Source of the DNA: Ensifer adhaerens
GTDB taxonomy: Bacteria; Pseudomonadota; Alphaproteobacteria; Rhizobiales; Rhizobiaceae
Direction of reading: 5' to 3'
Length of the DNA: 64,000 nucleotides
Assembly: GCF_013283195.1 (NCBI RefSeq)
Contig: NZ_JABEKT010000001.1
Coordinates: 470,795-534,794 of the forward strand
The notes beneath the pieces were generated by a model, which was not told where the DNA came from, did no database searches, and saw only the letters and a list, made by a program, of their open reading frames with translations. This document shows positions 54,938 through 64,000 of this stretch, piece after piece. Numbering within the stretch: the first letter of the stretch is position 1; each line of letters begins with the position of its first letter. A program made the translations under genes and the position numbers.

Positions 54938-55573
54938 ATGTCGAGTGTCAGATGGACCATAAAGGGCCGGGAATTCATTCACTGCAATTGCGCCTATGGC
55001 TGCCCCTGCCAGTTCAACGCGCTGCCGACCCACGGCAATTGCTGCGCCGTCGGCGGGATCGAGATCGAGACCGGCCATCACGGCGAAACGCGGCTCGACG
55101 GCTTGCGATGCGGACTGATCGCGGCCTGGCCGGGCGCAATTCACGAGGGCAAAGGAGCGGTCGTGCCGATCGTCGATATCCGCGCCACTCCGGCGCAACG
55201 GGAGTCGTTGCTGCGCATCATGAGCGGCCAGGATACCGAGCCAGGAGCGACCTTCTTCCAGGTGTTTGCCACCACATTTGAAACCTTTCACGACCCGGTC
55301 TTTGCCGAAATCGATTTCGATGTCGACGTGAGCGCCCGCACAGCACGGCTGAACGTTCCCGGCTGGATCGTCGCGCGCGGCGAGCCGATCCTGAACCCGG
55401 TGACGGGGAGCCCGCATCAGGCGCGCATCAACCTGCCGAAGGGCTTCGAATACGATATCTGCGAAGTCGGGCGCGGCTGGGCCGATACCAAAGGGCCGTT
55501 GGCGCTGTCGATCCCGGATTCGCACGCCCATTTTGCCAGCATGCATCTGACTGAAAGCGGCGTGGTGCACTGA
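54938..55573 (+). CDS. DUF1326 protein, Cys-rich, function unknown
   Basis: A 211-aa soluble protein of the DUF1326 family. The N terminus carries a dense Cys cluster, HCNCAYGCPCQF (about 16-27), then NCC near residue 35-36, which looks like a metal or redox site. The rest is beta-rich without catalytic motifs I recognise. No signal peptide. It lies 5 nt before a DUF2182 membrane protein gene, and the two are commonly neighbours, so they probably act together. GGGAGGAGACG is a strong ribosome site. Confidence 0.85.
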   Translation: MSSVRWTIKGREFIHCNCAYGCPCQFNALPTHGNCCAVGGIEIETGHHGETRLDGLRCGLIAAWPGAIHEGKGAVVPIVDIRATPAQRESLLRIMSGQDTEPGATFFQVFATTFETFHDPVFAEIDFDVDVSARTARLNVPGWIVARGEPILNPVTGSPHQARINLPKGFEYDICEVGRGWADTKGPLALSIPDSHAHFASMHLTESGVVH

Positions 55574-60124: not shown

Positions 60125-62362
60125 TCAACCGCCCGTCAGGATATCGAAAAGTGTCGTGCGCTTGGTGGCGCCGGTGGTCTCGCCGACATCGGCCGGCGGT
60201 ACCATGCCGCCGTTGCCTTCGGGCAAGGGGCGGGTCTGCTGGACGGCCATCGAACCGTCGACGCCGACAGGCGGTGCTGGAAAGGCGTTCGGATCGCCGG
60301 AAAGAATGTCGCCCGTTGCTGCCGGCGGTGTACCGCCGTCGTCGAAGACCGGCTGCACCCCGGTGGTGCCGAACAGCGGCGAGGGCGAAAGCCCCTCGTG
60401 CGCGGCCAGCATGTAGTCGTGCCAGGCCTTGGCGGGCAGGCCACCGCCGGTGACCTTCTTCATCGACTTGCCGTCGTCATTGCCGAACCAGACGCCGGTG
60501 GTGAGGTTCGAGGTATAGCCGACGAAAAGCGCGTCGCGGAAGGATTGGGTGGTGCCGGTCTTGCCAGCCGCTTCCCAGCCCTTCAGCTGGGCCTTCTTGC
60601 CGGTGCCGTTGGTCAGCACCCGCACCATCATCTGGTTCATTTCGCTGACGATGGCCGGGTCGAGCACACGCGGCGGGTTGTCGTAGGTATTTTCGTAAAG
60701 CACCGTGCCGTCGGCCTTGGAAATCCGGCGGATGACATGCGGCGTCGCCTTGAAGCCGCCGTTCATGAACGGGGCATAGGCAGACGTCAGCTCGACGAGG
60801 CTGACCTCCGAGGTTCCGAGCGCGATCGAGGCATTGGCCTGCATCTCGGAATCGATGCCGAGGCGGTGCGCGACCTTCACCACATTTTGCGGACCGACTT
60901 CCATGACGAGCTGCGCGGCGATGGTGTTCAACGAATTGGCAAGTGCGTCGGCGAGCGTGACCTCGCCGCGGTATTTCTGGTCGTAATTTTCAGGCGTCCA
61001 GTTGCCGATCCGGACCGGGCCGTCGTTGCGGATCGACATCGGAGTGCGACCGATCTCGAGTGCTGCCGCGTAGACGAAGGGCTTGAAGGCGGAGCCGGGC
61101 TGGCGCTTGGCCTTGGAGGCGCGGTCGAACTGGCTTTCGGCATAATCCTTGCCGCCGACCAGCGCACGAATGGCGCCGGTGCCGTCGATCGACACGAGGG
61201 CTGCCTGCGAAGCGTCGAGCTTCTTGCCGTCGGCGTCAAGCGTGGCGCTGATCGCCTCTTCCGCCTTCTTTTCGAGGTTGAGGTCGATCGTCGTGTCGAT
61301 GACCAGGTCTTCCTTGATCTCGCCGATCATGCCGGGAAGCTGATCCATCACCATGTCGGCGACATAGTGCTCGGCGCCCGACCAGTAGCTCTTGGCCTTG
61401 GTCGGCGTCTGCGACATCGCGGTCTTGATTTCGCTTTCGGTGACGAAGCCTTCCTCGCGCATGGCGCCGAGAACGACCTGGGCGCGCTCTTCCGCAGCCT
61501 TCGGGTCGCGGGCCGGCGACAGGCGCGAAGGCGCCTTCAGCAGGCCGGCAAGCAGAGCCGCCTCGCCGAGGTTCACGTCGCGCGCCGATTTGTTGAAATA
61601 GCGTCGCGACGCCGCTTCGACGCCATAGGCGTTCGAGCCGAAGAACACCCGGTTGAGATACATCGCCAGGATCTGGTCCTTGGAATATTTCTGTTCCAGC
61701 CAGAAGGCGAGCAGTACTTCCTGCACCTTGCGTTCAAGCGTGCGCTCCGGCGACAGGAACAGGTTCTTGGCAAGCTGCTGGGTCAGCGTCGAGCCGCCCT
61801 GGACCATCCGGCCGGTGGTGACATTGGTCAGCATGGCGCGTGCCAGGCCCAGCGGATCGACGCCGAAATGCGAATAGAACCGGCGGTCCTCGATGGCGAT
61901 AACTGCCTGGGGAATGTAGGGCGACATGTTTTCGAGCGACAAAGCTTCGCCGCCGGTGGTGCCGCGATTGGCGATGATGTCGCCATTGACGGAAAGAATC
62001 TTGACGTTGGGCGGCCGCTCGGGGATCGACCAGCTTTCGGCGCTCGGCATGCGCGCGCCGTAATAGAGCACCAGGCCGCCGACGCCCATCGCACCCCAGA
62101 TCCCGAGCACGATGCACCAGTAAAACAGGGTGCGCACGAGGCCGATGAACCCGCCGCCATTGCCGGAGCCGCGTCGCGATCCGCCACGCTTGCTGCGCTT
62201 CGCCTTCTTCTTCTGCGCGGGAGCCGATTTTCCACGGGCCGGTTTGCGGCCGCCGCCGGTTACGCGATCGCTGGCCTCGATGCGAAAATCGTCATCATCG
62301 TCGTCGGTGCTTGCGCCGAACGAGGGCTCGATCCGTTGTCCTGACTTGCCGCTTGCTGCCAT
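60125..62362 (-). CDS. mrcA: Penicillin-binding protein 1A, bifunctional
   Basis: A 745-aa class A PBP that polymerises and cross-links peptidoglycan. A basic Lys/Arg/Gly-rich cytosolic head (about 30-65) precedes one membrane helix (about 72-97). The glycosyltransferase domain has AIEDRRFYSHFGVD and GGSTLTQQLAKN, and the transpeptidase domain has the nucleophile in PGSAFKPFVY, a Ser-x-Asn motif (LANSLNT) and KTGTT. The C-terminal tail is Pro-rich. It ends 120 nt before the dnaK promoter. Confidence 0.95.
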   Translation of the reverse strand: MAASGKSGQRIEPSFGASTDDDDDDFRIEASDRVTGGGRKPARGKSAPAQKKKAKRSKRGGSRRGSGNGGGFIGLVRTLFYWCIVLGIWGAMGVGGLVLYYGARMPSAESWSIPERPPNVKILSVNGDIIANRGTTGGEALSLENMSPYIPQAVIAIEDRRFYSHFGVDPLGLARAMLTNVTTGRMVQGGSTLTQQLAKNLFLSPERTLERKVQEVLLAFWLEQKYSKDQILAMYLNRVFFGSNAYGVEAASRRYFNKSARDVNLGEAALLAGLLKAPSRLSPARDPKAAEERAQVVLGAMREEGFVTESEIKTAMSQTPTKAKSYWSGAEHYVADMVMDQLPGMIGEIKEDLVIDTTIDLNLEKKAEEAISATLDADGKKLDASQAALVSIDGTGAIRALVGGKDYAESQFDRASKAKRQPGSAFKPFVYAAALEIGRTPMSIRNDGPVRIGNWTPENYDQKYRGEVTLADALANSLNTIAAQLVMEVGPQNVVKVAHRLGIDSEMQANASIALGTSEVSLVELTSAYAPFMNGGFKATPHVIRRISKADGTVLYENTYDNPPRVLDPAIVSEMNQMMVRVLTNGTGKKAQLKGWEAAGKTGTTQSFRDALFVGYTSNLTTGVWFGNDDGKSMKKVTGGGLPAKAWHDYMLAAHEGLSPSPLFGTTGVQPVFDDGGTPPAATGDILSGDPNAFPAPPVGVDGSMAVQQTRPLPEGNGGMVPPADVGETTGATKRTTLFDILTGG

Positions 62363-62826: not shown

Positions 62827-63036
62827 CTATTCGGCAGTCTTTTCGTCCTGCACCAGGCGATCGGTCTTTTTCAGGACTACCATTTCTTCGGATACCGGCT
62901 CGCTTTCCGTCGATATGCTCGCTGTCGTCGTTTCCGTGTCGATCGCTGCATTGGTCTTGGCGTGATAGGCGCATTCGGCAAATGCCGCGGAGGTCGACAG
63001 GCCGATGGCGGCTACGGTCACTAGAAGCGTCCTCAT
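62827..63036 (-). CDS. Small secreted protein, 69 aa
   Basis: A signal peptide MRTLLVTVAAIGLSTSAAFA (1-20) ends before ECAYH. The mature part of about 49 residues is Thr/Glu/Ser-rich and acidic, with one Cys and the tail LKKTDRLVQDEKTAE. AAGGAG lies 6 nt before the ATG, an excellent ribosome site that fixes the start over the in-frame ATG at 63057. Function unknown; probably periplasmic. Confidence 0.75.
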   Translation of the reverse strand: MRTLLVTVAAIGLSTSAAFAECAYHAKTNAAIDTETTTASISTESEPVSEEMVVLKKTDRLVQDEKTAE

Positions 63037-63290
63037 GATCTTCTCCTTCTCGCTCACCGGTCAAATCTAACGCGCAAAGCGATCTGCTCGAAATCACGAT
63101 TTTGTTCCGGCGGGAGGCCGGGCCAGGTAGTGCCATGACGTCGCCGAAGCGCGTGGGGTCGGCGGGGCGATTGCAGAATGCTTGCGGACTATCGATCAGC
63201 CGATAGCCTTCAACTTCGCTCTCTAAATCAACAGTCAGGTGTCTATCGACGCGGCTAGGGATTAAAATGGTGCGATGCAGCAAATTGCCC
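63037..63290. other. Spacer upstream of the sRNA, no gene found
   Basis: About 250 nt between the small secreted-protein gene and the sRNA promoter. It should hold the - strand promoter of the small-protein genes. No coding frame with a ribosome site and no clear palindrome is seen. Confidence 0.5.
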
Positions 63291-63319
63291 TTGAAAATAT
63301 TGCGGCGCATGATTATTAT
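63291..63319 (+). promoter_or_regulatory. Sigma-70 promoter of the alpha-r14-like sRNA
   Basis: TTGAAA (63291-63296) and TATTAT (63314-63319) are exactly 17 bp apart. Transcription would begin near 63326, just before the first hairpin. Confidence 0.7.
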
Positions 63320-63325
63320 ACGACT

Positions 63326-63440
63326 TATCGAAGCGCTGCACCTCCTCCCGCGGCGCCCGATGCGGATCGGTGGCACTCCTCCTCCCAGTCACCGGTCAAG
63401 TTTGAGAGCCCCGTGCACCTCCTCCCGCGCGGGGCTCTTT
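63326..63440 (+). ncRNA. Small RNA of the alpha-r14 / NfeR1 type, three anti-SD hairpins
   Basis: Three successive stem-loops each show a CCTCC-type, anti-Shine-Dalgarno loop. Hairpin 1: GCGCTGC/GCGGCGC with loop ACCTCCTCCC (63333-63356). Hairpin 2: CGGTGGC/GTCACCG with loop ACTCCTCCTCCCA (63368-63394). Hairpin 3: AGAGCCCCGTGC/GCGCGGGGCTCT with loop ACCTCCTCCC, followed by TT, the terminator (63405-63440). A length of about 115 nt, three hairpins and the CCUCCUCCC loops match the alpha-r14 family, whose S. meliloti member is NfeR1, a trans-acting RNA that silences many transporter mRNAs by pairing with their ribosome sites. A consensus promoter lies in front. Ends are estimated. Confidence 0.85.
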
Positions 63441-63535
63441 TCATGTCTGGGCCTCTCTCCTGCCTGACGAAGTCAACTCACCTTCGGCGCAGATTAGACT
63501 GGTCCTGCAAGGCTTGCGGGTGTATCGGCGCGGAC

Positions 63536-64000
63536 ATGGGCTCCAAGGCAAACGGCTACATCTACGCGCTACAGGCAATCGTCATCTTTGCGATCCAGGA
63601 CGGCATCTCCAAACATCTGGGCAGCCTCTATCCCCCTGTCTTTGTGGCAATGATCCGCTATTGGGCCTTTGCCCTGTTTGCAGTCGTGCTCGCCACCCGG
63701 GCAACAGGCGGGCTCAAGGTGACGGCCGCGACCAGAAGACCGCTGCTGCAGGTGCTGCGCGGGCTGCTGTTGCCGCTGCAGATCGTCATGGTGATCACCT
63801 CGTTCACGCTGGTGGGGCTGGCGCATTCGCAGGCAATCCTCGCGGCGACGCCCTTATTTGTTGCCCTCCTGTCGATGCCGCTCCTGGGTGAGCGTGTCGG
63901 CTGGCGCCGGTGGCTGGCGATCTCGGTCGGGCTTATCGGCGTTCTCCTGATCCTGAAACCGGCCGAGGGCCTGTTCGAGACGGCATTCCTGTTGCCCTTG
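63536..64000 (+). CDS. DMT/EamA-family transporter, N-terminal part (cut by window end)
   Basis: An open frame of 155 codons without stop runs off the window. It codes for about five hydrophobic helices in the EamA pattern, with IQDGISKHLGSLYPP near residue 20-34, VAMIRYWAF, and the end of the first repeat LAATPLFVALLSMPLLGERV (about 110-129). Such proteins export or import metabolites such as amino acids; full family length is about 290-300 aa, so half is missing. The ATG has no strong ribosome site, and the start is therefore moderately certain. Confidence 0.82.
   Translation, partial: MGSKANGYIYALQAIVIFAIQDGISKHLGSLYPPVFVAMIRYWAFALFAVVLATRATGGLKVTAATRRPLLQVLRGLLLPLQIVMVITSFTLVGLAHSQAILAATPLFVALLSMPLLGERVGWRRWLAISVGLIGVLLILKPAEGLFETAFLLPL

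Follow-up and report, generated by a model that had tools for sequence, protein, structure and literature searches.

The 64,000-nucleotide stretch of Ensifer adhaerens DNA analysed here (the window) holds, near its end, one of five αr14 genes that lie above the family cut-off in this genome. We read it, with a probability of roughly 85%, as the gene of a free-standing RNA, about 118 nt long and equipped with a σ70-like promoter and an intrinsic terminator, which would silence mRNAs through anti-Shine-Dalgarno loops and which is a paralogue of NfeR1 with a different address and a different control region. The family is already known, through αr14/NfeR1, the 'cuckoo' RNAs and their CcsR relatives, and the window locus is a new locus of a known kind: an αr14 paralogue is placed at a conserved address and set apart from NfeR1. 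The RNA gene, its parts and its neighbours in the window are as follows.

63265-63279, + strand: degraded LsrB/VtlR-type motif (AAATGGTGCGATGCA, 4 of 15 positions mismatched; motif as given in PMC12595884)
63271-63279, + strand: TGC-N3-GCA box near -54, conserved without mismatch in all 16 Ensifer orthologues
63291-63319, + strand: σ70-like core promoter, TTGAAA-N17-TATTAT, 10 of 12 matches, aligned in the Ensifer orthologues
63323-63442, + strand: αr14 (RF02344) small RNA gene, from cmscan, fold and covariation; predicted 5' end near 63325
63326-63362, + strand: hairpin 1, with CCUCCUCCC in its loop (63341-63349), from fold, covariation and word scan
63365-63397, + strand: hairpin 2, with CCUCCUCCC in its loop (63378-63386), from the same three sources
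63404-63441, + strand: hairpin 3 with the intrinsic terminator: stem of 13 bp, CCUCCUCCC in its loop (63418-63426), TTTT at 63438-63441
60125-62362, - strand: flanking penicillin-binding protein (PBP; Transgly and Transpeptidase), next to the RNA in all 15 other Ensifer genomes
63536-64000, + strand: flanking EamA transporter, which leaves the window; 295 aa in L053

With regard to family membership, the RNA looks like a genuine αr14 (NfeR1-type) member, as the first-pass annotation had proposed from the letters alone. The covariance model RF02344 (ar14) matched over its whole length (1-123 of 123) with 104.1 bits, where the gathering score is 58.8, and with an E-value of 3.8e-18 in the window. 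The match of the ar7 model (RF02342) reached 25.9 bits, below its gathering score of 60, and the F6 match to the RNA was rejected for the same reason. Three near-equal anti-Shine-Dalgarno loops had been described, and they were found at the positions given for them: the word CCTCCTCCC occurs on the + strand at 63341-63349, 63378-63386 and 63418-63426 and nowhere else on either strand of the 64 kb, where 0.60 occurrences were expected and at least three were obtained in 1 of 100 shuffles. Folding of 63325-63442 gave three hairpins with these words unpaired, at a minimum free energy of -57.2 kcal/mol (z -5.26), and none of 200 shuffled sequences was as stable.

The sigma-70 promoter with 17-bp spacing was likewise borne out at the level of sequence, with TTGAAA at 63291-63296 and TATTAT at 63314-63319 separated by 17 nt; 0.2 such sites would be expected in the 501 bases scanned. 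A simple terminator scan reported 0 terminators, because its limits (loop size 3-8, five of eight bases T) exclude hairpin 3, which has a 10-nt loop and a run of four T. The terminator call, which agrees with the earlier one, rests on the stem of hairpin 3, the T run and the point at which conservation stops, and would give a transcript of about 115-118 nt, matching the length first suggested.

Of 61 genomes, 37 gave an ar14 match above the cut-off and 45 a match with an E-value no higher than 0.001, among them all 16 genomes of the genus of the window; the window locus itself was retrieved from all 15 other genomes of the genus. When contigs were scanned, the exact 5' end of the window RNA was present in 10 stretches, and the NfeR1 promoter consensus combined with the loop gave 0 matches. 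The alignment shows a conserved block that extends from the TGC-N3-GCA box through the TTTT, with divergent sequence on both flanks. That the hairpins and loops are retained in close relatives was confirmed in the 16 Ensifer genomes, in which 47 of 48 loops are exact. These orthologues form 14 distinct rows with 35 pairs and 490 pair cells, and pairing is kept in 489 of the cells (99.8%), whereas versions of the alignment structure slid along the sequence pair in 33-54% of cells. Changes on both sides affect 6 of the 35 pairs (13 cells), and 0 of 500 shuffles reached the pairing and both-sided measures, although close relatives may exceed shuffles even without structure; the measure of further pair types was not above shuffles, since 120 of 500 equalled or exceeded it. 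As the rows are close relatives, this is good yet not independent evidence of selection on the structure.

The address is conserved as well. DnaK lies near the RNA of the window locus in 15 of 15 other Ensifer genomes, and EamA was found near it in 9 of the 15 stretches. In a second genus (g70), ar14 lies between PBP and EamA in 4 of 4 loci examined, and in a further genus (L057) it lies near a PBP of 68% identity. A locus made up of PBP, ar14 and often EamA thus exists outside Ensifer also.

The genome carries five ar14 copies above the cut-off, and two further matches fall below it, with 40.3 and 34.4 bits. The five were assigned by Rfam to the following places.

C1:2240189-2240598, - strand: tandem ar14 pair
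C1:534117, + strand: ar14 copy of the window
Contig C12: one single ar14 copy
Contig C15: one single ar14 copy

The copy on C12 (L056:5755-5898, + strand) has four CCTCCTCCC words, and its hairpins, judged by eye, are nearly identical to those of the C15 copy. Three- and four-hairpin αr14 relatives are described in section 2.7 of PMC3927594.

For Sinorhizobium meliloti, PMC2780559 lists C14 (SmrC14, later named NfeR1) with SMc02051 and tig as its neighbours. The sole Trigger_N (tig) match in the present genome, at C1:2243045, and the tandem pair are separated by 2.4 kb that contain a tRNA and at least two ORFs, and a DUF1127 gene stands on the other side of the pair. As the tandem pair is near tig and the window copy is far off, the NfeR1 locus most likely corresponds to the tandem pair, and the window copy, at its PBP/EamA address, is probably a sister of NfeR1 and not its orthologue. 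The identification of the window copy with NfeR1 in the first-pass annotation was accordingly not upheld: tig accompanies the tandem pair, and upstream of the window copy the LsrB site is degraded and an NtrC-type site is not conserved.

The control region was compared with that of NfeR1 in S. meliloti, at which, according to PMC10746234, LsrB activates at TGCA-N6-GCAT (-72 to -60) and NtrC represses at TGC-N11-GCA (-116 to -101). The comparison covered 16 Ensifer copies, 4 copies of g70 and 14 other copies (13 and L057), drawn from the best Rfam and BLAST matches fetched, and the positions of boxes and hexamers assume a transcript start 16 nt before loop 1. Between -74 and -66, none of the 16 Ensifer copies of this locus has an LsrB box with 2 or fewer mismatches, whereas all 4 g70 orthologues and 12 of the 14 others do. 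At this position all 16 Ensifer copies show 3-5 mismatches, the window copy itself 5; over the whole range of -95 to -35 the best value of the window copy is 4 and that of the Ensifer copies 2-4, in several cases because the match overlaps the proximal box near -54. In 9 of these 16 genomes, the second copy at the tig locus has an exact LsrB box some 91 nt ahead of its loop 1. The VtlR motif behaves in the same way: with at most 3 mismatches it is present in all 4 g70 copies, in 12 of the 14 others and in none of the 16 Ensifer copies. Of its 15 letters the window copy keeps 11, which 0 of 200 shuffles reach, so a weak site may exist there. The NtrC-type box had no exact match from about -140 to -70 in any of the 16 Ensifer copies; the best matches, with 1-2 mismatches, lie at scattered positions.

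Every one of the 16 Ensifer copies has a core promoter that scores 9-10 of 12 (in L040 through another hexamer pair), and the mean best score out of 12, measured against the E. coli and not an α-proteobacterial consensus, was 9.75 for Ensifer, 8.25 for g70 and 8.07 for the others. The decay of the LsrB-type box together with a core promoter nearer to consensus suggests altered regulation, and from it we infer a shift from activator-dependent toward more autonomous transcription. A tentative extension, which we hold to be rather less probable than its negation, is that the Ensifer paralogue has been rewired: it would have lost the LysR-type (LsrB/VtlR) box, gained a stronger core promoter and come to provide the same anti-Shine-Dalgarno loops at a basal level that needs no activator, as a floor beneath the stress-induced NfeR1 copies. 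Should the promoters differ in living cells as they do in sequence, this would be a simple natural test of how sister sRNAs with identical seeds divide labour via expression alone.

In all 16 Ensifer tig loci an exact TGCA-N6-GCAT word was also observed, 164-177 nt beyond the point where loop 2 of the second copy starts. In L054 this word precedes a DUF1127 gene of 47 aa (L054:6816-6959, - strand), which lies beyond the tandem pair. The tig-side ar14 pair and the DUF1127 gene may possibly belong to a shared LysR-type regulon.

Were the window copy the NfeR1 orthologue, it would be under LsrB and NtrC control and would act in osmoadaptation and symbiosis. Family and three loops are indeed the same as those of NfeR1, tig is not directly adjacent to the tandem pair here, and for S. 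meliloti the comparison draws on the published listing of NfeR1; we nevertheless regard this reading as very unlikely, given that this listing puts NfeR1 beside tig, that tig is also held by 12 of the 20 loci retrieved for other genera within the family, and given an LsrB box that is mismatched throughout the window-locus copies while being exact at the second tig-side copy in more than half of the genomes. Since the window copy is a paralogue, the phenotypes of NfeR1 should not be assigned to it, and the role in osmoadaptation and nodulation that had been suggested is not transferable from NfeR1 by sequence.

Somewhat less improbable, but still unlikely, is a silent or decaying duplicate that still folds but whose expression is no longer meaningful because its activator box has decayed. 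The degraded LsrB/VtlR motif fits such a history, and so does the report that only one of six S. meliloti copies was reliably detected by Northern blot under the conditions tested (PMC7143759), so that sister copies may be weakly expressed. The compensatory changes, the near-perfect retention of the loops and a core promoter kept in every Ensifer copy argue instead for continued selection. We give least credit of all to the RNA being part of a translated EamA leader. In the window, an open frame that begins at the ATG at 63275 continues in phase across the RNA into EamA, but among the 9 Ensifer loci with the EamA start pattern, the present one included, it is in frame, open and provided with an ATG start in only 2 (L052 and L053), and the RNA is kept in the 6 of 15 stretches in which EamA was not found; this ORF was rejected on both counts.

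As an NfeR1 paralogue, the window RNA would act by the mechanism of its family. Each of the three hairpins is predicted to display CCUCCUCCC in single-stranded form, and any single loop could pair with a GGAGG-rich Shine-Dalgarno region and block ribosome loading, so that the RNA can probably mask the ribosome-binding sites of mRNAs. The translation of several mRNAs would be lowered, as others showed for NfeR1 of S. meliloti, for which redundant silencing through the three loops is published (PMC10746234). The same loops combined with a different address and upstream control imply that the paralogue probably feeds the same target pool under other conditions.

With regard to targets, PMC10746234 gives many predicted transporter targets for NfeR1, of which two transporter mRNAs were tested with reporters, together with ntrB. 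We scored 60 start regions of the window, taken from a crude mechanical gene list, by an equally crude sum of duplex energy and opening cost. The local ABC genes that had been put forward as plausible targets did not stand out. Four Yej-like genes gave net values of -2.3 to +1.1 kcal/mol, and three nucleoside-ABC-like genes, which were missed by the mechanical gene list and scored apart, gave -1.8, -2.0 and -5.9 kcal/mol. The last of these values belongs to the permease (5583), which would rank about sixth beside the 60 start regions, far from the top site. 'Yej' and 'nucleoside' are the labels of the first-pass annotation; the Pfam matches are SBP_bac_5, BPD_transp_1, ABC_tran and BPD_transp_2. 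The top local site, CCGGGAGGAGA, lies before a DUF1326 gene (54938-55573) with a net -13.8 kcal/mol. Its GGAGGAG is present before the start in 15 of 15 close orthologues, that of this genome included, and 1 of 16 genomes lacked a match. We do not claim this gene as a target, as a strong conserved Shine-Dalgarno sequence is expected even without an sRNA. Over the 60 start regions of the window, the loops paired no better than shuffled loops (loop a, mean -8.46, against a shuffled mean of -8.17, sd 0.70; loop b, mean -7.24), and we therefore name the mechanism without a target claim. In the whole genome, ntrB has a weak site (-7.2 duplex, +0.9 net), and GGGAGGAGG 3-12 bases before an ATG gave 12 rows, two of which overlap at one place and one of which is the opposite strand of the extra loop of the C12 ar14 copy.

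Among known systems, the window RNA is closest to the founder of αr14 (RF02344), NfeR1/SmrC14/SmelC397 of S. meliloti. Both have three hairpins with CCUCCUCCC loops, their own σ70-like promoter, an intrinsic terminator, a length of about 120 nt and several copies per genome; they differ in the address, which is PBP/EamA and not SMc02051/tig, and in the control region, in which the window copy has a degraded LsrB-type box and no conserved NtrC-type site. The CCUCCUCCC loops are also shared with the CcsR RNAs of Rhodobacter sphaeroides (RF02791) and with the 'cuckoo' family that accompanies DUF1127 genes. The CcsR1 model matched the first two hairpins of the window RNA, but its 47.9 bits fall short of the gathering score of 65.3. 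CcsR is processed from the ccaF1 (DUF1127) transcript, according to PMC10253847, whereas the window RNA has three hairpins and a free-standing promoter. It has no adjoining DUF1127 gene, the nearest one lying about 64 kb away at C1:598056 (at least 9 matches, with 150 of 209 candidates scored). AbcR1 and AbcR2 (ar15, RF02345) are rhizobial sRNAs with similar but not identical anti-Shine-Dalgarno motifs. They belong to a separate Rfam family, and their four matches in the genome lie away from the window RNA; in S. meliloti, LsrB co-activates AbcR1 (PMC10746234, section 13). A literature search conducted on terms other than the PBP-side locus returned no title that is an sRNA survey of Ensifer adhaerens.

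Several other features were observed around αr14 genes. A 69-aa ORF at 62827-63036 (- strand) has, by eye, a signal-peptide-like start with a Shine-Dalgarno-like GAAGGAGAAG upstream, and gave no Pfam match. A full ar7 sRNA (L053:12686-12833, - strand, 136.3 bits) is situated about 5.4 kb past the window RNA; in L057, ar7 lies about 3 kb from ar14, with an ar35 match in between. In several other genera (L063, L066, L067, L069, L071, L072, L073 and L075), ar14 stands, by eye, just after the end of a DUF1127-like frame, an arrangement that resembles the ccaF1-CcsR order of Rhodobacter.
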